This document shows positions 47,945 through 59,973 of a DNA stretch of 64,000 bases, piece after piece. Made by a program: the position numbers and the translations under genes. Each line of letters opens with the position of its first letter. The stretch's first letter is position 1. Under the pieces are notes generated by a model. That model saw nothing but the letters and a program-made list of their open reading frames with translations, ran no database searches and was not told where the DNA came from. Source of the stretch: an uncultured Eubacteriales bacterium (GTDB taxonomy: Bacteria; Bacillota; Clostridia; Lachnospirales; Lachnospiraceae); NCBI GenBank assembly GCA_949292785.1, contig CASFBK010000016.1:1-64000 (forward strand), written 5' to 3'.

Positions 47945-48277
47945 ATGAAAAAAAGGAAAAATTATCTGGATTATATCCCAAAGCGTAATTCTTATTACCA
48001 ATATACCTTTAACAGCCAAAATCACATTGAAATCCATATTCCCAATCAAGGACTATGCAACCGGATTGCACAGATTTTTTTCAAACGTCCCAAATACAGC
48101 CGGATTGAACTAGATGACTTGGGAAGCTTTGTATGGAATTCCATCAATGGCACGCTTTCCATCTATGAGATTGGTCTTAACGTCAAGGAACATTTCGGCA
48201 AAGAAGCAGAACCTTTGTATGAACGCCTGTCCTGCTTTTTTATGGCACTTCAAAAAAATAATTTAATTACCTTGTAA
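47945..48277 (+). CDS. PqqD-family protein
   Basis: A 110-aa protein whose second half (about 55-108) matches the PqqD/RRE fold: IELDDLGSFVWNSINGTLSIYEI then a helix and a final strand. PqqD-type domains bind leader peptides of ribosomally made, modified peptides; many stand-alone members have other or unknown roles. There is no radical SAM enzyme or peptide-modification gene nearby. The ribosome binding site is weak (AGGAATTAAAGCT). Its stop codon overlaps the -35 box of the mgtE promoter. Confidence 0.75.
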   Translation: MKKRKNYLDYIPKRNSYYQYTFNSQNHIEIHIPNQGLCNRIAQIFFKRPKYSRIELDDLGSFVWNSINGTLSIYEIGLNVKEHFGKEAEPLYERLSCFFMALQKNNLITL

Positions 48278-48300
48278 TTATGAAAAAAAAGAACTATAAT
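48272..48300 (+). promoter_or_regulatory. Promoter of the mgtE leader/mgtE unit
   Basis: -35 TTGTAA (48272-48277), spacer exactly 17 nt, -10 TATAAT (48295-48300). It would start a transcript near 48307, about 30 nt before the leader ORF and 230 nt before mgtE. Confidence 0.7.
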
Positions 48301-48335
48301 GTAAAATATGATAAAAATAAAGGCAGGTGAACAAA

Positions 48336-48437
48336 ATGGACAGTTGTGACAATCATAGTCGAAGTAGCTGCATAGGTCGAAATCTGAATAGAAGTAATTG
48401 GCAACGAATGTGTATCCAACCGTTCGTTTTGTTTTAA
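48336..48437 (+). CDS. Putative leader peptide of mgtE
   Basis: A 33-aa reading frame starting MDSCDNHSRSSCIGRN and ending QPFVLF, with SD AGGTGA seven bases before the ATG. It lies between a consensus promoter and mgtE. The 99-nt stretch after it is C-containing but G-poor and unstructured (possible Rho-loading region). The N-terminus matches the short ORF before mgtA (MDS...RSS; nine identical bases CGAAGTAGC). Magnesium-sensing leader peptides are known for mgtA/mgtCB in Salmonella (MgtL, MgtP); a similar role is inferred. Confidence 0.6.
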   Translation: MDSCDNHSRSSCIGRNLNRSNWQRMCIQPFVLF

Positions 48438-48536
48438 TGTATACTTTATAATACTCTTCTTAATGCTTTTCAATACTTCTAAACATTTTTCTGATCTATC
48501 CCCAATAACAAATAACTGAATAAGGAGGCTTTAAAA

Positions 48537-49964
48537 ATGGAAATGAAAGTATTAAAAGCAGGAGAAACTATGGTTTCTATTAAGCCAGATTATGTAAGAG
48601 AGATTATTGACGTTATCAGAAGCAATGCCTCTCCAAAAGCCATGCGCGAACACCTCGAAGATTATCATGAAAATGATATTGCTGACGTGTTGGAATTATT
48701 GTCGATAGCGGAACGTAAAAAGCTATACCGTATTCTGGATGCATCTATGCTGTCAAATATCCTGGAATATGCGAAAGAACATGACGCTGGTATCTATCTG
48801 GATGAAATGGACATAAATAAGGCTGCAAAAGTGATTGAAAACATGGAATCAGATGCAGCCTTAGGTGTGTTGCAAAAAGTAGAAAAAAATAAAAGAATGC
48901 TTCTTATTGATTACCTCAATGAAGCGGTAAGAAAAAACATTGCCTTAATGTCATCTTTTGATGAAGACGAAATCGGTAGTAAAATGACAACAAATCATAT
49001 TGCCATCCGGGAAAATCTTACAATCAAGCAGGCAATGCGCGCCCTCATAGAGCAGGCTTCTACCAATGACAATATCTCTACCCTGTTTGTCACGGATGAA
49101 TCAGGCGCATTTTATGGAGCCATTGATTTAAAAGAGCTTATCACTGCCCGACAGGATACCTCGCTGGATTCCCTGATTATGACCTCCTATCCCTATGTAT
49201 ATGGGCATGAGGACATTGATGACTGTATTGAGCGACTAAAGGATTATTCCGAAGATTTAATTCCTGTACTGGATAATGATAATAATCTGCTTGGTGTTAT
49301 CACATCCCAAAATATTATTCAGGTAGTGGATGATGAAATGAGCGAAGATTATGCAAAGCTTGGTGGATTAACGGCAGAAGAGGATTTAAAGGAACCACTT
49401 TTGCAGAGCATGAAAAAACGTCTTCCATGGCTTTTTGTACTTTTGGCTCTTGGCTTACTGGTATCATCCGTGGTGGGATTGTTCGAGCAAGTGGTATCAC
49501 AGCTTACTTTGATTATGTGTTTTCAGTCATTGATACTGGATATGGCTGGTAATGTAGGTACTCAATCGCTGGCTGTTACCATCCGTGTTTTGATGGATGA
49601 AACATTGACCGGAAAACAAAAACTGCACCTGGTTTTAAAAGAAACCAAAATCGGATTTGCGAATGGTCTGCTTCTTGGAATTATCTCATTCGTAATCCTT
49701 GGTATCTATATTTTTGCTATGAAAGGACGGGGATTATTAATGGCATTGGCAATCTCCGGATGTATCGGTATATCGCTTTTACTTGCAATGGTTATTTCCA
49801 GCGCTGTAGGCACTTTGATTCCTCTGTTTTTCAAAAAAATTCATGTTGATCCCGCAGTTGCATCCGGTCCGCTCATTACTACCGTAAACGACCTGGTAGC
49901 AGTTATCACATATTACGGACTGAGTTGGATTCTACTCCTGAATATACTGCATTTAGCCGAATAA
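48537..49964 (+). CDS. mgtE: Magnesium channel/transporter MgtE
   Basis: A 475-aa Mg2+ channel. Order: cytosolic N-domain (about 15-140), two CBS domains (about 145-265; MTTNHIAIRENLTIKQAM; TSYPYVYGHEDIDDCIE), plug helix, and five TM helices (about 295-472) with the pore motif NVGTQSLAVTIR and a conserved pore Asp in PLITTVNDL. Mg2+ binding between the N and CBS domains closes the pore. AAGGAGGCTTTAAAA lies before the ATG. It is transcribed behind a leader ORF. Confidence 0.95.
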   Translation: MEMKVLKAGETMVSIKPDYVREIIDVIRSNASPKAMREHLEDYHENDIADVLELLSIAERKKLYRILDASMLSNILEYAKEHDAGIYLDEMDINKAAKVIENMESDAALGVLQKVEKNKRMLLIDYLNEAVRKNIALMSSFDEDEIGSKMTTNHIAIRENLTIKQAMRALIEQASTNDNISTLFVTDESGAFYGAIDLKELITARQDTSLDSLIMTSYPYVYGHEDIDDCIERLKDYSEDLIPVLDNDNNLLGVITSQNIIQVVDDEMSEDYAKLGGLTAEEDLKEPLLQSMKKRLPWLFVLLALGLLVSSVVGLFEQVVSQLTLIMCFQSLILDMAGNVGTQSLAVTIRVLMDETLTGKQKLHLVLKETKIGFANGLLLGIISFVILGIYIFAMKGRGLLMALAISGCIGISLLLAMVISSAVGTLIPLFFKKIHVDPAVASGPLITTVNDLVAVITYYGLSWILLLNILHLAE

Positions 49965-52640: not shown

Positions 52641-55415
52641 TTATAACAGCTCACCGTAATGCTTTACATAAGCCTTCTTCAGGCTTGTCGCCAATGCCAT
52701 ATAAAGCAGGATGCACGGAATCAGATACGCAAAATAGCTTGCCGGCAGCGCCACAAATCCCAGCATTGTTCCAAATGCCGTAAACGGAATAATGGTAAGG
52801 ACTGTAATTCCGGTACAGGTCAGCAGCGTCAACGGAGCGGACGCACGGCTCTGGATAAACGGAATCTTCGGTGTACGAATCATATGGATAACCAGCGTCT
52901 GGCTCCACATGGATTCCACGAACCAGCCTGCCTGGAACATTGCCGCATAAGTCGTCTGCATCTGCTCTAATTCTGCTCCGCTGAAATGATTTGCCAAGTC
53001 GTTATACAACACACCGTCGGACACGAATATCGGACAGTATACAAAGTACATGAAAATGTAAGTTGTCCAGTCGAATACAGAGCTTGTCGGTCCAATCCAA
53101 ATCATAAAGCTGCCCACAGAGGAAGCATCCCATTTACGGGGTATGCGCAGGAATTCTTCGTCTACATTATCCCACGGAATTGCTGTACAGGACAAATCAT
53201 AAATGAGGTTCAGGAAGATCAGATGTACGCTCATCATTGGCAGAATTGGTATCAGCGCTGAAGCCGCCAGCACGGAGAACATATTTCCGAAGTTGGAGGA
53301 AGCAGTCATCTTTATGTACTTAATCATGTTAGCATAGGTCTTTCTGCCTTCAATAATACCTTTTTCCAGTACCATCAGGTCTTTCTCAAGCAGAATGATA
53401 TCGGCGCTTTCCTTTGCCACGTCTACCGCTGTATCCACGGAAATACCAATGTCAGCGGATTTCATAGCTGCTGCGTCATTGATACCGTCTCCCATAAATC
53501 CAACCGTATGTCCGGATTCACGAAGGACTGATACCACACGGGACTTCTGATCCGGGGTCAGCTTTGCAAAAACGTCTGTCTCTTCAGCAGCTTTTGCCAG
53601 CTCAATGTCGTTCATTTTATCTAAATCGGAACCCAACAACATATTACGCACCTTTAAGCCTACCTGTGCGCAAATTGTACGCGTTACTTTATCATTATCT
53701 CCTGTCAGGATTTTGGTGGTTACACCATGCTCTTTCAATGCACGAATTGCATCCGCAGTTGTTTCTTTTGGCGGATCAAGGAATGCCAGATAGCCAAGCA
53801 GAACCATATCACATTCATCCTTTACGCCAAAGGCTCCTACAGGAGAAGGATTGCTCTTTTGCGCAAGAGCCAGAACACGAAAACCCTTATCATTCAGTTC
53901 ATCAACGGTTTTCAATATCTTGTGCCGCAGTTCCTCAGAGAGCGGCTGAACCTCACCGTCATATTCCGCAAAGGAACAAACAGAAAGCATTTCCTCCACA
54001 GCCCCTTTGGTGACCATCTGCGTCTTTCCGGTCTTATCCTTCACCACAGTGCTCAAACGACGGCGCGTAAAGTCAAAGGGAATCTCGTCTACTTTTTCAT
54101 AATGCTCCGAAAGATCAATCAGCCGGGGATCTTCCGCCTCTTCCTCTTCGGTTTTCTTTATGATAGCTAAATCCATCAGGTTTTTATATCCGGTCTGGAA
54201 ATAGCTGTTCAAATACGCATGGCGCAGAACACGAGTATCCTCTTTGCCATTTGCATCCATATGGTATTCCAGAACTACCTGATCCTGAGTTAAAGTACCG
54301 GTCTTATCTGTGCAGAGAATATCAATAGCTCCAAAGTTCTGGATGGAGTTCAGATTTTTTACAATGGTCTTTTCCTTACTCATGGAAACAGCACCCTTTG
54401 CCAGACATGTGGTAACGATCATAGGCAGCATCTCCGGCGTCAGACCTACTGCAATAGAAATACCGAACAGAAATGCCTCCAGCCAGTCTCCTTTTGTAAT
54501 TCCGTTGATAAAAAATACTACCGGAACCATAACCAGCATAAAACGAATTAATACCCAGGATACCGCATTTACGCCTTTGGTAAAGCTGGTTTCCACTGCT
54601 TCCTCGGCTACTGAAGAAGCCATCGAACCAAACAGGGTATTATCACCAACCGAAATAACGACACCAGTGGCGCTGCCGGAAACGACATTGCTTCCCATGA
54701 AAGCAATATTGCCATATTCTGTCACAGCATCCTGATCCGTTTCGACCATTTGGGGCGTTTTCTCTATCGGTTCACTTTCTCCCGTCAGGCTGGACTGGCT
54801 GACAAACAAATCCTTTGCATCAACAATACGCATATCAGCCGGAATCATATCACCTGCGGAAAGACGGACAACATCCCCGACAACAACATCTTCCAGGGGA
54901 ATTTCAATTTTTTCCTGCTCCCTCCTGTCAACGGTACAGGTTGTAGTAATCATATCAAGCAGCCTTTCTGCCGCATTGCCGCTGCGGGCTTCCTGTACAA
55001 AACGTAATGTACCGGAAATGACAACCATGGTCAGGATAATTACCACCGTCAGGCAGTCAAAATCATCTTTCGTGTTCCCCCACAGCTCCATATAGGGCAA
55101 AATCATATCTGTAACCATGGAAACCAGAGCAAGGCAGAACAAAATCGCCGTAAAGGGATTAATATAAGCTCCTGCCAGTCTCTGCGGCAACGATTTCTTC
55201 TTTTGATGAGTTATCTTGTTTGTTCCATATTTTTTTCGATTAGCAGCAACATTTTCCTCTGAAAGACCACGCAGCGTTGTGTTCTGTGCTTTCATAACTT
55301 CTTTTATGGGGTGCATTGCAGCATAAGTAATGTGGCTGTTCTGCTCTTCGCGGACTCCCGCCTTTTCAGCAGCCACCTTAGTTTCCTGCTGACTGCTTAA
55401 TTCCTTCTTATTCAT
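52641..55415 (-). CDS. mgtA: Mg2+-importing P-type ATPase MgtA
   Basis: A 924-aa P3B-type ATPase. N-terminal cation-ATPase domain, TGES (211-214), phosphorylated Asp370 in DKTGTLT, nucleotide domain, [10 protein letters not shown], and the MgtA-type C-terminal TM region ([34 protein letters not shown]). It brings Mg2+ into the cell. The ribosome binding site TTAGGAGGTAAGTCCA contains the stop codon of the upstream leader ORF. A 49-aa membrane protein follows. Confidence 0.96.
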
Positions 55416-55427
55416 TGGACTTACCTC

Positions 55428-55538
55428 CTAACCTTTTTCATTAAGGCAAGAAACAGAATCAGATGAGAAAAATGGGTTCTGATCTGTTTTTTTATTCTGT
55501 TTCTGCCTGCTACTTCGCGGACTACTGTCAGAGTCCAT
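55428..55538 (-). CDS. Putative leader peptide of mgtA
   Basis: A 36-aa reading frame starting MDSDSSPRSSRQKQNKKTDQ with strong SD GGAGGTGAGGAAA. Its stop TAG is inside the mgtA SD (GGTTAGGAGGT), so translation of the two is coupled. Acidic residues and Pro near the start followed by basic residues recall the Salmonella mgtA leader MgtL, whose Asp/Glu/Pro codons make ribosomes sensitive to low Mg2+. The start resembles the short ORF before mgtE. A leader role is inferred. Confidence 0.65.
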   Translation of the reverse strand: MDSDSSPRSSRQKQNKKTDQNPFFSSDSVSCLNEKG

Positions 55539-55587
55539 TTTCCTCACCTCCGATGTAAAAATATCTATTAATAAACCACTAAGTGGA

Positions 55588-55899
55588 TTATTTGTTACGG
55601 TAACGGTCTTTCTTTTCGATGTAGCACACGTCAAAGCCTGCAACAACAAGCCATGCAATCATAGTACATACAAACCAATGCTCTGAAAATCCTGGCCACA
55701 GCCCTTTCAACAGGAAGATGATGCCGCTCAAAGCGATGACTTCCCCGATATTACGGCAAAGCGGCACAATTTTGATTTTTTCTTTTTCCTCCTGCGGCAT
55801 AGCCTTCCATGCAGATAAATGGGTGTGCACTTTTCCACACGCAAAAGCAAAACCTGCCACACAAAAAAGTAGCCCCAAAAAAATACAGGTGAAATTCAT
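55588..55899 (-). CDS. DUF3784-like small membrane protein
   Basis: A 103-aa protein with three hydrophobic segments (about 3-22, 51-67 and 75-92) and a cytosolic loop PQEEKEKIKIVPLCRNIGEV. The layout fits DUF3784 as I recall it. AAAGGAGTGAATTACG precedes the ATG. It lies between mgtC and the mgtA leader and is likely part of the same Mg2+ gene set; function unknown. Confidence 0.75.
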   Translation of the reverse strand: MNFTCIFLGLLFCVAGFAFACGKVHTHLSAWKAMPQEEKEKIKIVPLCRNIGEVIALSGIIFLLKGLWPGFSEHWFVCTMIAWLVVAGFDVCYIEKKDRYRNK

Positions 55900-55937
55900 C
55901 GTAATTCACTCCTTTCAGTGTTTTCTATTGTCTTCAC

Positions 55938-56618
55938 TCACAGTACCTCCCATCCGGCACTGATGACCGCAGGTACAATAAGCGCTTTTCCAACAATCGC
56001 TTCTAATACATGGTTTTTTTCTTTGCCGGTGGAACAGTATTCCGCAATAATTTCGACCTTATCCCCAACTATATCCCCACTTTCAAGATTGCTGAGATAT
56101 AAGGTCTTACAGGTATTACTGTTAATCAGTAAACTGCGAATCTCCTGTTCTGCTTCTTCCAGACAGGTAATGAAAATACGATACTGTTTTTCAGCCTCGT
56201 CATGGCCGACAACCGGATTTATTTTTCTGGCAAGGGGTCGAAGCAATATATTAGACAAAATCAAAACAGCGGTTGCTGTAATTGGTGCAAGAAACATTCC
56301 TGTACTGGCTAAAAGTCCAATCGCCGCTGTACACCAAAGTGTTGCTGCCGTGTTCATCCCTCTGACAGAGGCACCATCTTTAAAAATAACACCACTGCAC
56401 AAAAATCCTACGCCAGAAACAACATAACGTCCTACATAAAGTGCATTATCCGGAGAGCCATAGCACATAGGAAACAATGTAAAAAAGCTGGTTCCCATAC
56501 AAATCAAAACATTTATACGAATACCTGCAGGATGTCCCGTCAACTGTCGCTCAAGCCCAATAACAAATCCGAGTAGCAACGAAAGGGAAATTCGCAATAC
56601 AAAATCGGTATAAATCAT
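55938..56618 (-). CDS. mgtC: MgtC/SapB family protein
   Basis: A 226-aa membrane protein. The N-terminal domain has about four to five TM helices with the MgtC signature LGFVIGLERQLTGHPAGIR and the VGFLCSGVIFKDG segment. The C-terminal half (about 145-226) is a cytosolic ACT-like domain. MgtC proteins are induced under Mg2+ limitation and in some species modulate F-type ATP synthase. AGGGAGGCGGTTGAT precedes the ATG. Its promoter region carries an 11-bp-period direct repeat shared with the second mgtA-type gene. Confidence 0.93.
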   Translation of the reverse strand: MIYTDFVLRISLSLLLGFVIGLERQLTGHPAGIRINVLICMGTSFFTLFPMCYGSPDNALYVGRYVVSGVGFLCSGVIFKDGASVRGMNTAATLWCTAAIGLLASTGMFLAPITATAVLILSNILLRPLARKINPVVGHDEAEKQYRIFITCLEEAEQEIRSLLINSNTCKTLYLSNLESGDIVGDKVEIIAEYCSTGKEKNHVLEAIVGKALIVPAVISAGWEVL

Positions 56619-57292: not shown

Positions 57293-59947
57293 TCAAAGTA
57301 ATTCATGATATTTCTTTACATACCAGCTTTTTGCCAGCGTAACCAGCAACAGATACAGCACAACAATGACAATCAGAAACCCGAAGTACACGAGAGGCAG
57401 GGGGGTTAATCCGATCAAGCTTCCAACTGGTGTAAAGGTCAGAACCGTAAAAAACAGGATTCCAAGCGTTGTAATGAGCATTACTGGACGTGAAGGCTTA
57501 CTTTGGAACAACGGAATCTTCCCAGTTCGGAGCAGATGCAGGATTAATACCTGTGTCCACATAGATTCCAAAAACCATCCGGTTTGAAACAAAGCAATAA
57601 ACCTTTCCTGCCCACCTGTCCCGGCAAGCACCTCAAAACTTCCTCCACAGACAGAAGGACATAATACAAAGAACAAAAACACAAATGTCAAAATATCAAA
57701 AACGGAGCTGATTGGACCAAAAAAGCGCATGAAGCGTCCTAGCGTCCGTCCGGACCATTCCAATGGCTGTGAGAGAATATCCTGATCCACATAATCCCAT
57801 GGAAGCACAAGACATAATACATCATAGAGCAGGTTTAATAAAAGAAGCTGCACAGATGTCATAGGGAAAAATGGTAAGAACACACCTGCGATGACAATCG
57901 AAAAAATATTGCCAAAATTAGAGGATGCTGTAATTCGGATATATTTTGACATATTGGCAAATGCTTTGCGTCCTTCTAAAATCCCTTCTTCCAAAACACT
58001 TAAATCCTTTTTCAGTAAAATTACATCTGCACTTTCCTTTACAGCTTCTGCCGCCGTATCCACCGAGATACCCACATCTGATTCCACGATGGCGGGAAGA
58101 TCATTCATCCCATCTCCCAAAAAACCAACAGTATGCCCATTTGACTGCAATATTTGCACAATCCGAACTTTCTGTTTCGGAGTAAGTTCTGCAAAAACAG
58201 TTGTACGCTCAATTTTGACGGATACTTCATCATCCGTCAGACATTCAAGTTCTGCACCTGTCATGATTTCTGTCGTATCAATATCCAGCCTATGACAGAT
58301 AGAGAGCGCAACGCTTTTTTGATCTCCTGTCAACACTCTTATTCCGACATGACGGAACTTCAATTTTCTAATGGCAGTAGCGGCTGTGTTCTTTGGTGCA
58401 TCAAAAAATGCCAAATATCCCAATAGTATAAAATCTTTCTCATCTTCGGTATTCAACTTTCCCTGCTGGAGAGGTTTGTAGGCCACCGCCAAAACCTTCA
58501 TGCCATCCTCTAGCATTTCATCAACAACTGCATGGACACTGGCACGCCCATCCTCCTCCATTTTTCTGTGCTTTCCCTTGTACTCAACAAAGCGGCAATG
58601 ACTGCATACTTCTTCAATGCTGCCCTTAATGATAAGCATATTTTTTTCGCTATCTTTCACAAGAACACTGGCAAACTTCCGTTCGTAGTCGAATGGCAAC
58701 TCATCCAATTTTGGATGCTGTACTGCAAAATCCTTAAAATGAGATTTACGTCCTGGCATATCCTGGCATTTAAGAATAGCTGTGTCCAGATGGTTTCGAA
58801 CACCAGTATGATAGAGGCTGTTCAAATAAGCAAAATCTAAAACCTTTTCATCTTCGTTGCCAAGTATATCCATGTAGTATTCCAACAGAATCGTATCGCC
58901 AGTTAAAGTGCCTGTTTTATCCACGCACAGAATATCCATACTGCCAAATCCCTGCATAGCATTGAGGTTTTTTACCACAGTCTGCTTTGTGCTCATGGCT
59001 GCGCTGCCCTTTGCAAGGCAAGCATTGATTACCATCGGTAGCATTTCCGGGGTCAGCCCTACCGCAACGGACAGCGCGAACATAAATGCCGCAAACCAGT
59101 TTCCTTTAGTAAGACCGCAAGCAACGAATACCACAGGAACAAGAACAGACATAAAGCGAGTTAAAACCCATGCGATTGAGTTTGCACCCTGATCGAATCC
59201 GTTTTTATGTCTTGATTCTGCTCCTGAAAAACCGCCATAAACAGTATCTTTGCCGACAGCTAAAACGATACCTTCTCCCGTACCGCCAATAACAGCGGAA
59301 CCCATGAACGCAATATTATTATACTCCGCATAAGACCGTTCCTTACCCCCTGAAAGGGTTTTAGAATTTTTTTCTAATATGGCGCTCTCCCCAGTAATTA
59401 CAGACTGTGAAACAAATAAATCTGCTGTATCCGTAAGCCGAATGTCAGCGGGAATTCGATCACCGGCAAAAAGACGAACCTGATCTCCAACTACAAGTTC
59501 GCATGTAGGAATACCCACCCATTTTCCACCTCGATGTACCATTACATTTGTATGAACCATCTCTGACAGATAATCAGAAATGTGTTTTGACCGCATCTCC
59601 TGTATAAACCGCACAATACCACTGATAAGAAGCATACATAGAATAATCCATACAGTAGTCACATTGCGGCTGAAATTGGAAGCAAGCAGAACGTCTGTTA
59701 CAAACGAAACCCCCGCCAGTACAAATAAAATAACAGTAAATGGATTTATAAAGGCCCTTCTAAGCCGATAGAACACCGTATCATTTGCCCGACCTGTCAA
59801 AGTGTTGCTTCCGTATTGCTCACTACTTCTTTCAGCCTGTTCTTTATTATACCCCCCATCGGGGATTTGAAATTCCTGATACAGCGCATCAACTTCTTCG
59901 TGCGCGTAATGAATCACTCGCTCGTGAATTGAATTGCCACCTTTCAT
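57293..59947 (-). CDS. Second MgtA-type Mg2+ P-type ATPase
   Basis: An 884-aa P3B-type ATPase from the ATG at 59947 (GGAGG eight bases upstream; a TTG start further up would overlap this site). It shows TGES, Asp343 in DKTGTLT, GDGMNDLPAI and the MgtA C-terminal pattern [14 protein letters not shown]. It is clearly divergent from the MgtA at 52.6-55.4 kb (different N-terminus, about half identity by eye), so it is an old paralogue or an independent acquisition, not a recent duplication. Heads the run with the winged-helix regulator. Confidence 0.93.
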   Translation of the reverse strand: MKGGNSIHERVIHYAHEEVDALYQEFQIPDGGYNKEQAERSSEQYGSNTLTGRANDTVFYRLRRAFINPFTVILFVLAGVSFVTDVLLASNFSRNVTTVWIILCMLLISGIVRFIQEMRSKHISDYLSEMVHTNVMVHRGGKWVGIPTCELVVGDQVRLFAGDRIPADIRLTDTADLFVSQSVITGESAILEKNSKTLSGGKERSYAEYNNIAFMGSAVIGGTGEGIVLAVGKDTVYGGFSGAESRHKNGFDQGANSIAWVLTRFMSVLVPVVFVACGLTKGNWFAAFMFALSVAVGLTPEMLPMVINACLAKGSAAMSTKQTVVKNLNAMQGFGSMDILCVDKTGTLTGDTILLEYYMDILGNEDEKVLDFAYLNSLYHTGVRNHLDTAILKCQDMPGRKSHFKDFAVQHPKLDELPFDYERKFASVLVKDSEKNMLIIKGSIEEVCSHCRFVEYKGKHRKMEEDGRASVHAVVDEMLEDGMKVLAVAYKPLQQGKLNTEDEKDFILLGYLAFFDAPKNTAATAIRKLKFRHVGIRVLTGDQKSVALSICHRLDIDTTEIMTGAELECLTDDEVSVKIERTTVFAELTPKQKVRIVQILQSNGHTVGFLGDGMNDLPAIVESDVGISVDTAAEAVKESADVILLKKDLSVLEEGILEGRKAFANMSKYIRITASSNFGNIFSIVIAGVFLPFFPMTSVQLLLLNLLYDVLCLVLPWDYVDQDILSQPLEWSGRTLGRFMRFFGPISSVFDILTFVFLFFVLCPSVCGGSFEVLAGTGGQERFIALFQTGWFLESMWTQVLILHLLRTGKIPLFQSKPSRPVMLITTLGILFFTVLTFTPVGSLIGLTPLPLVYFGFLIVIVVLYLLLVTLAKSWYVKKYHELL

Positions 59948-59973
59948 CCATCTCACCTCCAATCGTTTTTTTC

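Follow-up and report, generated by a model that had tools for sequence, protein, structure and literature searches.

In this study we found that the 33-codon open reading frame (ORF) in front of mgtE is real and belongs to a family of leader ORFs with the consensus MDSCDS-x-G-R-S. All coordinates refer to the window, i.e. the whole stretch of DNA that was analysed, 64,000 nucleotides from an uncultured Eubacteriales bacterium of the Lachnospiraceae. We consider it probable that these leaders act as a switch set by ribosome position, in which the translated leader ORF controls a Mg2+ transporter gene, with Mg2+ as the presumed signal. The features of the two loci concerned are collected in Table 1.

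Table 1. Features of the mgtE and mgtA loci in the window. Segments A, B and C are the predicted pairing partners of the putative switch.
Feature	Position	Strand	Remarks
Promoter-like TTGTAA-17-TATAAT	48272-48300	+	match count at chance level
Shine-Dalgarno AGGTGA of mgtE leader ORF	48325-48330	+	similar in 30-sequence alignment
mgtE leader ORF	48336-48437	+	33 codons, MDSCDNHSRSS..., peptide MDSCDNHSRSSCIGRNLNRSNWQRMCIQPFVLF; family matches and coding test
CGA Arg codon (codon 9), mgtE leader	48360-48362	+	proposed pause point
Segment A, mgtE leader	48372-48396	+	inside ORF, starts 9 nt past CGA; predicted to pair with B
Terminator-like hairpin AACGAATG...CGTTCGTT then TTGTTTTAA	48403-48428	+	3' part of mgtE leader ORF
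Segment B, mgtE	48474-48499	+	predicted to pair with A, or (48484-48490) with mgtE start region
Shine-Dalgarno AAGGAGG of mgtE	48522-48528	+	sequence
Segment C, mgtE start region	48539-48545	+	predicted to pair with B once first part of A is unavailable
mgtE, Mg2+ transporter	48537-49964	+	TIGR00400, PF01769, PF03448, CBS
mgtA, Mg2+ P-type ATPase	52641-55415	-	TIGR01524 and NF011702 over cut-off
Segment C, mgtA Shine-Dalgarno region, GAGGTAAG	55420-55427	-	folding calculation
mgtA leader ORF	55428-55538	-	36 codons, MDSDSSPRSS..., peptide MDSDSSPRSSRQKQNKKTDQNPFFSSDSVSCLNEKG; R1 match E 1.1e-7 (R1 training sequence)
Segment B, mgtA leader	55444-55459	-	predicted to pair with A, or partly with mgtA Shine-Dalgarno
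Segment A, mgtA leader, AGGCAGAAACAGAAT	55494-55508	-	folding calculation
CGA codon (codon 8), mgtA leader	55515-55517	-	
Shine-Dalgarno and start region, mgtA leader	55535-55549	-	when unoccupied, can pair with 55461-55475

At the mgtE locus the ORF and its Shine-Dalgarno sequence were present as the first-pass annotation had described them, with the stop codon 99 nt 5' of the mgtE start at 48537. The TTGTAA-17-TATAAT promoter named there exists as a sequence, but promoter-like matches in that stretch occurred at chance level (4 found vs 3.1 expected). A 110-aa PqqD-like ORF (PF05402, 47945-48277) lies directly 5' of the mgtE leader.

The starts of the mgtE and mgtA leaders are related, as had been proposed. 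AGGTGANNNAAATGGAC occurs in two perfect copies in the 64 kb, both at these ORFs; when two mismatches were allowed, three copies were found in the window vs 0.75 expected, a number reached by 4 of 100 shuffles. CGAAGTAGC is also common to both ORFs. The transporters themselves were rightly called unrelated, their proteins matching different families (TIGR00400 vs TIGR01524). The source genome contains three copies of the leader, before two mgtE genes and one mgtA; the third, MDSCDSCGRSR..., is located on contig C22, 223 nt before the start of the second mgtE. A degenerate start pattern with up to two mismatches gave 80 matches genome-wide vs 78 in the reversed control; both window ORFs had no mismatch and the C22 leader was one of three matches with a single mismatch. 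R1, a sequence-only model built from eight leader starts, gave three strong matches in the source genome, all before Mg2+ transporters and all of them R1 training sequences, and one weak match elsewhere (E 0.14). Neither the mgtE nor the mgtA leader peptide had an NCBIfam or Pfam match (E<=0.001). At gathering level the window had no Rfam match, and the leader had nothing relevant at E<=5; a snoRNA match on the leader (E 4) was discarded as not relevant.

The gene order around the mgtA leader, mgtC - DUF3784 gene - leader ORF - mgtA (window 52641-56618), resembles mgtC - mgtQ - mgtB of Salmonella. A second Mg2+ P-type ATPase gene is found in the window at 57293-59962. Its start is overlapped by a 20-codon ORF, MDERWQFNSRA..., with CGA at codon 10, which might be a degenerate or a different leader.

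R1 was run on 299 Lachnospiraceae genomes and its matches were compared with MgtE matches by contig, strand and position. At E<=0.0015 all 32 matches were located upstream of Mg2+ transporters (31 mgtE and one mgtA), at distances of up to about 700 nt; eight of these best 32 were training sequences and 24 were not. When the threshold was set to E<=0.005, 35 of the 38 matches were upstream of mgtE (34) or mgtA (1), and three, in G282, G104 and G091, were unrelated ORF starts. Beyond this threshold the matches were mostly weak, and at least 145 of the 299 genomes had one at E<=0.5. The flanks of seven weak matches were inspected: L101-L106 were the starts of other ORFs, and L107 was a leader before mgtA.

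Scanning named GTDB genomes, which partly overlap with the 299, for a sequence pattern returned 43 loci, 42 of them with mgtE within 2.5 kb downstream; at the 43rd only 57 nt of contig remain downstream. The pattern required CGA and is therefore uninformative on this codon. Pattern loci were found in Agathobacter ruminis, Roseburia faecis, Roseburia inulinivorans, Coprococcus comes, Butyribacter intestini and Hominisplanchenecus faecis, and also in many metagenome-assembled genomes. A further model, R2, trained on CGA leaders, was run over 391 genomes of the class Clostridia. Outside Lachnospiraceae, 13 of the 27 inspected loci had MgtE downstream, in eight other families; the other 14 had none and looked unrelated. 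Three of the 13 leaders precede an MgtE that is only 24-26% identical to that of the window, and 11 of the 13 contain an in-frame CGA (codons 7-14), the exceptions being G585, without CGA, and G619, with CGA out of frame. The G619 leader (L235) has kept GGCGAAGT and is one base short, which reflects either a fault in the assembly or a genuine exception. In leaders L239, L241, L252 and L108, which stand before MgtE of the distant clade (24-26% identity), the first CGA is at codon 8, 12 or 14.

Peptide similarity yielded 51 leader candidates, some of them weak, in 79 mgtE upstream regions, and no candidate in 28 of the 79. The leader ORFs are 24-52 codons long, and 55-359 nt separate their stop from the transporter start (70 loci). 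A leader-peptide class common to mgtE and mgtA in clostridia, as suggested in the first-pass annotation, is well supported and wider than proposed: the search before these genes in other Lachnospiraceae extended it to many genera, and beyond them to eight other families of the class.

By sequence comparison, the first nine to ten codons of the leaders (Met-Asp2...Asp5...Arg9) are conserved as protein. In 32 leaders with CGA at codon 9, whose relatedness was left uncorrected, the similarity of codons 2-10 was 3.03 in frame 0 vs 1.63 (sd 0.037) for the same substitutions placed at random, and lay below expectation in frames 1 and 2. Within codons 2-8 variability was greatest at the third positions, with 92 consensus mismatches vs 48 and 35 at the other two. 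The Asp5 codon was GAC in 17 and GAT in 14 leaders, Asp2 was likewise about equally GAC and GAT, and Ser6 was encoded by AGT, AGC or TCT. Codon 2 encoded Asp in 28, Glu in three and Ser in one of the 32 leaders, and codon 5 Asp in 31 and Gly in one; both codons were more variable in leaders outside this set. The leaders accordingly show acidic residues among codons 1-5, a trait of the Mg2+ leader peptides MgtL and mgtQ. What stands before the Mg2+ transporter genes appears to be a translated short ORF, with a Shine-Dalgarno sequence, frame-specific conservation and association with the gene.

The sequences also indicate that Arg9 is nearly always encoded by CGA. In the 51 candidates, Arg at codon 9 was CGA in 36 of 38 leaders, AGA in one (G065) and AGG in one, which has a CGA at codon 6; some of the leaders were found with the help of R1, and seven of R1's source sequences carry CGA at codons 8-9, so that discovery leaned to CGA, whereas the peptide criterion did not require it. 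An in-frame CGA in codons 5-14 was present in 44 of the 51 and lacking in seven, and the first was found at codon 9 (35 leaders), 7 (4), 8 (2), 12 (2) or 6 (1). CGA triplets in nt 13-42 numbered 48 in frame vs 2 and 16 in the other frames (48/66). The counts by frame elsewhere in these ORFs were 9, 4 and 6, and in nine mgtA leaders 5, 3 and 1. The background share of CGA among Arg codons was about 8% (58/711 in long window ORFs, 37/460 in mgtE genes), and from codon 14 on it made up 9 of the 74 Arg codons of the leaders. In leaders G255_L038 and G296_L099 codon 9 is CAA (Gln), which differs from CGA at the middle base only.

The tRNA-Arg anticodons of the source genome were ACG, TCT, CCT and CCG; no TCG anticodon occurred among 50 tRNA matches, all but one typed by ARAGORN, in an assembly that may miss tRNA genes. 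With this set of tRNAs, CGA should be decoded by inosine wobble. For the his leader of Salmonella, PMC4046918 describes poorer decoding of CGA than of CGU and CGC, with the strongest stalling at AGG; CGA is therefore not uniquely slow.

Besides the window's own mgtA, upstream regions were inspected for 22 of 35 listed mgtA matches, one being the second mgtA of the source genome. Nine leader candidates were accepted by eye (G119, G126, G179, G033, G038, G024, G018, G162, G144). In G033, G038 and G024 the form is shorter, MDxxPR, and CGA stands at codon 6; the CGA is codon 9 in G179 (MDSGGSHER) and codon 5 in G162, and four of the nine (G119, G126, G018, G144) have no CGA. The first-pass annotation had taken these leaders to be used in place of an M-box. 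This fits the source genome, as no M-box (RF00380) was detected in the window and none in the assembly at E<=0.001, but it does not hold in general, as M-box and leader stand in tandem before mgtA in four relatives, or five if a weak candidate is counted. M-boxes were found in 22 of 200 Lachnospiraceae genomes. At six mgtA loci with a confirmed M-box, an accepted leader was located between M-box and gene in G179, G162, G018 and G144; G003 had a weak candidate and in G051 none was seen. Like the M-box (ykoK), the clostridial leaders precede the same kind of genes; unlike it they are ORFs, and both occur together at some mgtA loci. Where M-box and leader ORF precede mgtA (L260-L264), each transcript would carry two different putative Mg2+ devices.

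Inspection by eye revealed at many of 15 loci that segment A, just past the CGA, is complementary to a downstream segment B, and B also to segment C, the Shine-Dalgarno/start region of the transporter gene. From 93 leader-gene intervals (51 + 42), 14 without a gene start or a CGA and nine duplicates were dropped, which left 70, and for 58 of these, within the accepted length, the cost of opening the ribosome binding site (RBS) was calculated; folding was at equilibrium and cotranscriptional kinetics were ignored. When the 30 nt after the CGA were deleted, opening became more than 1 kcal/mol costlier at 42 of the 58 loci and more than 1 kcal/mol cheaper at two; at 16 the effect was below 1 kcal/mol or reversed. 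The mean rise on deletion was +3.8 kcal/mol, vs +1.2 with A shuffled, and the real A opened the RBS better than the mean of 16 shuffles at 46 of 58 loci (Wilcoxon p=1.4e-7). Against foreign A segments (12 per locus, each with at least 15 of the 30 positions different), the locus's own A was better at 42 of 58 (p=1.9e-6), and at 19 better than all 12. Shuffling the next 30 nt gave a mean shift of 1.2 vs 2.6 for A, an unclean control because those bases may belong to the switch at many loci. The real sequence lay at or below a shuffle fraction of 0.1 at 25 of 58 loci for A and for the next 30 nt alike; the effect is thus not confined to A.

As the 5' edge was moved downstream from the first base of the CGA, the mean cost at the 58 loci rose from 7.4 (0) to 8.1 (+9), 9.2 (+15), 10.8 (+21) and 11.2 kcal/mol (+27) and then stayed at 11.5-11.8. 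The steps from +9 to +15 (p=2.5e-5) and from +15 to +21 (p=3.7e-5) stood out, and later tested steps missed 0.05. By this calculation the RBS closes as the edge of the ribosome passes 9-21 nt beyond the CGA. If the leading edge is taken to lie some 12-13 nt past the first base of the A-site codon, a ribosome waiting at the CGA would leave the greater part of A free and would cover A after two or three further codons. Exposing the leader's own start too (edge -50) added 1.9 kcal/mol to the cost relative to edge 0 (p=0.0009), with increases of more than 1 at 30 of 58 loci and decreases at nine, which favours the state with a ribosome on the early leader. Twelve mgtA leaders were profiled in the same way (the window's, the nine accepted and the weak candidates G003 and G185; those without CGA measured from codon 9), and in 10 of them the cost rose by more than 6 kcal/mol from edge 0 to its maximum, a figure without shuffle control. 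Mutually exclusive helices linking leader translation to the transporter gene are thereby predicted, and the calculations support control via RBS pairing, together with intrinsic terminators at some loci.

For the window's mgtE, the folding calculation gave ATAGGTC, GAAA and TAGAAGTA as the helices between A and B; with the first part of A removed, B turned to the start region of the gene at the positions listed in Table 1. The opening cost increased from 2.6 to 5.3 (+24) and 4.4 kcal/mol (+36). Given this small change, the window's mgtE is among the weaker switch cases in the calculation. The mgtE leader as a whole had no excess folding stability (z -0.30). For the window's mgtA the cost was 3.4 (0), 6.6 (+12), 8.7 (+24) and 11.9 kcal/mol (+36), the RBS being partly closed already at edge +12 in the calculation; at +24, 55450-55443 pairs with the Shine-Dalgarno sequence at 55427-55420. 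This leader showed excess folding stability (z -2.65, reached by 2 of 200 shuffles).

In the model we propose, a free segment A would pair with B and leave the transporter RBS more open. A ribosome further along the leader would mask A, and B would then close the RBS; with no ribosome on the leader its start region would tend to pair and the RBS would again be less open. Low Mg2+ may cause ribosomes to pause or fall apart on the stretch from Asp2/Asp5 to the CGA, a slowly read codon. Such ribosomes would hold the early part of the leader, A would stay free and mgtE or mgtA would be translated. When Mg2+ is sufficient, ribosomes would pass the CGA, cover A and shut the gene. We infer the response to Mg2+ from the genes that are controlled and from the Salmonella analogues. 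More tentatively, and at somewhat less than even chances, we propose a Mg2+ sensor of gut Clostridia in which the early acidic residues and a single hard-wired CGA, decoded solely by an inosine-adenosine wobble pair, set the point where the ribosome waits or falls off at low Mg2+, one design serving two MgtE clades and the P-type MgtA and being stacked behind M-boxes.

Leader translation could instead act mainly on transcription, through an intrinsic or a Rho-dependent terminator, with RBS pairing secondary. The scan for hairpins followed by T-runs speaks for this, with 30 terminator-like hairpins at 25 of the 70 loci (8.7 expected from shuffled sequences), among the listed ones that in the window at 48403-48428, which a simpler scan did not return. 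In G014 and G182, moreover, segment B has by eye two alternative partners, A and a downstream arm that runs into Ts, an arrangement unlisted in the scan. However, 45 of the 70 loci had no terminator in the scan and the RBS effect is widespread, and we regard transcription as the main target as rather unlikely; at loci with an intrinsic terminator in the leader-gene interval, control of transcription may be added to that of the RBS. A leader with its own Shine-Dalgarno sequence before the gene would also be expected if it merely delivered ribosomes downstream by translational coupling or reinitiation. The distances from stop to start given above are long for coupling, and this explanation, which leaves the near-fixed CGA and Asp2/Asp5 without a reason, is very improbable.

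The conserved start could also belong to a structured, riboswitch-like RNA with GAYAGY..GGCGAAGY as its conserved part, the ORF being incidental. The first 45 nt are strongly conserved at the nucleotide level, which would agree with this, as would G619, in which GGCGAAGT is retained out of frame. We consider it unlikely, because the conservation is frame-specific and includes the start codon and the Shine-Dalgarno sequence, because the first CGA shifts by whole codons (6, 7, 8, 9 or 12), and because neither window nor leader had a relevant Rfam match. That the switching position has just one Arg codon, and a nearly invariant one, would in turn suit an attenuator in which the ribosome waits at the CGA when charged Arg-tRNA(ICG) is short, the signal being amino-acid supply and not Mg2+. 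Known amino-acid attenuators have several codons for the regulated amino acid, whereas the leaders have no such run and one Arg codon only; the genes controlled are Mg2+ transporters from two families, and in some genomes the leader is stacked with an M-box. There is little chance that arginine supply is the signal, and control by ribosome position in response to Mg2+ remains the reading we prefer.

In his- and trp-type attenuators the position of the ribosome selects between exclusive helices; unlike in these, the clostridial leaders have no run of codons for a pathway amino acid and their targets are ion transporters. By analogy, the closest counterpart is mgtQ of Salmonella, an 8-codon ORF between mgtC and mgtB whose Asp2 and Glu5 act to destabilise ribosomes, the mgtB RBS being released by alternative stem-loops, as described in PMC8092293. 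The clostridial leaders share with mgtQ the placement of a short ORF ahead of a Mg2+ transporter gene, acidic residues encoded by codons 2 and 5 and predicted exclusive stem-loops at the RBS, and the window's mgtA leader also follows mgtC, with the DUF3784 gene in between. They differ from the experimentally shown mgtQ in their length of 24-52 codons, in the CGA at mostly codon 9, in their occurrence before mgtE as well and in belonging to Clostridia. MgtL of E. coli and Salmonella mgtA, for which PMC11282234 describes drop-off at low Mg2+ that turns the gene on, full translation that turns it off, an EPDP motif and Rho-dependent termination, is likewise a leader peptide with acidic residues near its start. 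No EPDP motif was seen among the clostridial leader peptides listed; some of the mgtA leaders have Pro-Arg(CGA). The likeness to MgtL and mgtQ is one in the way of working and implies no homology. A 5' element of mgtE is also known in the 'mgtE motif', a riboswitch candidate with the RBS in a stem, given as exclusive to Thioalkalivibrio in PMC11109978; the clostridial element is, unlike this one, an upstream ORF and occurs outside Thioalkalivibrio.

We found no earlier description of a leader-ORF family with the consensus reported here, and among the literature matches listed, with preprints and most subscription papers outside the scope, there was no described leader peptide of mgtE or in Clostridia/Lachnospiraceae. 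Mg2+-linked leader ORFs are known from Salmonella and E. coli (PMC8092293 and PMC11282234), and the former paper mentions an mgtQ-like ORF in Brucella. If our reading is true, the use of ribosome stability as a gauge of Mg2+ arose independently or is far wider, and would operate in common gut bacteria, here Roseburia, Coprococcus, Agathobacter and Blautia-type genomes. The near-invariant CGA would then be one of the few natural examples of a particular synonymous codon seemingly acting as the functional part, and the contributions of codon decoding and nascent-chain charge to ribosome destabilization would be testable by single-base changes.
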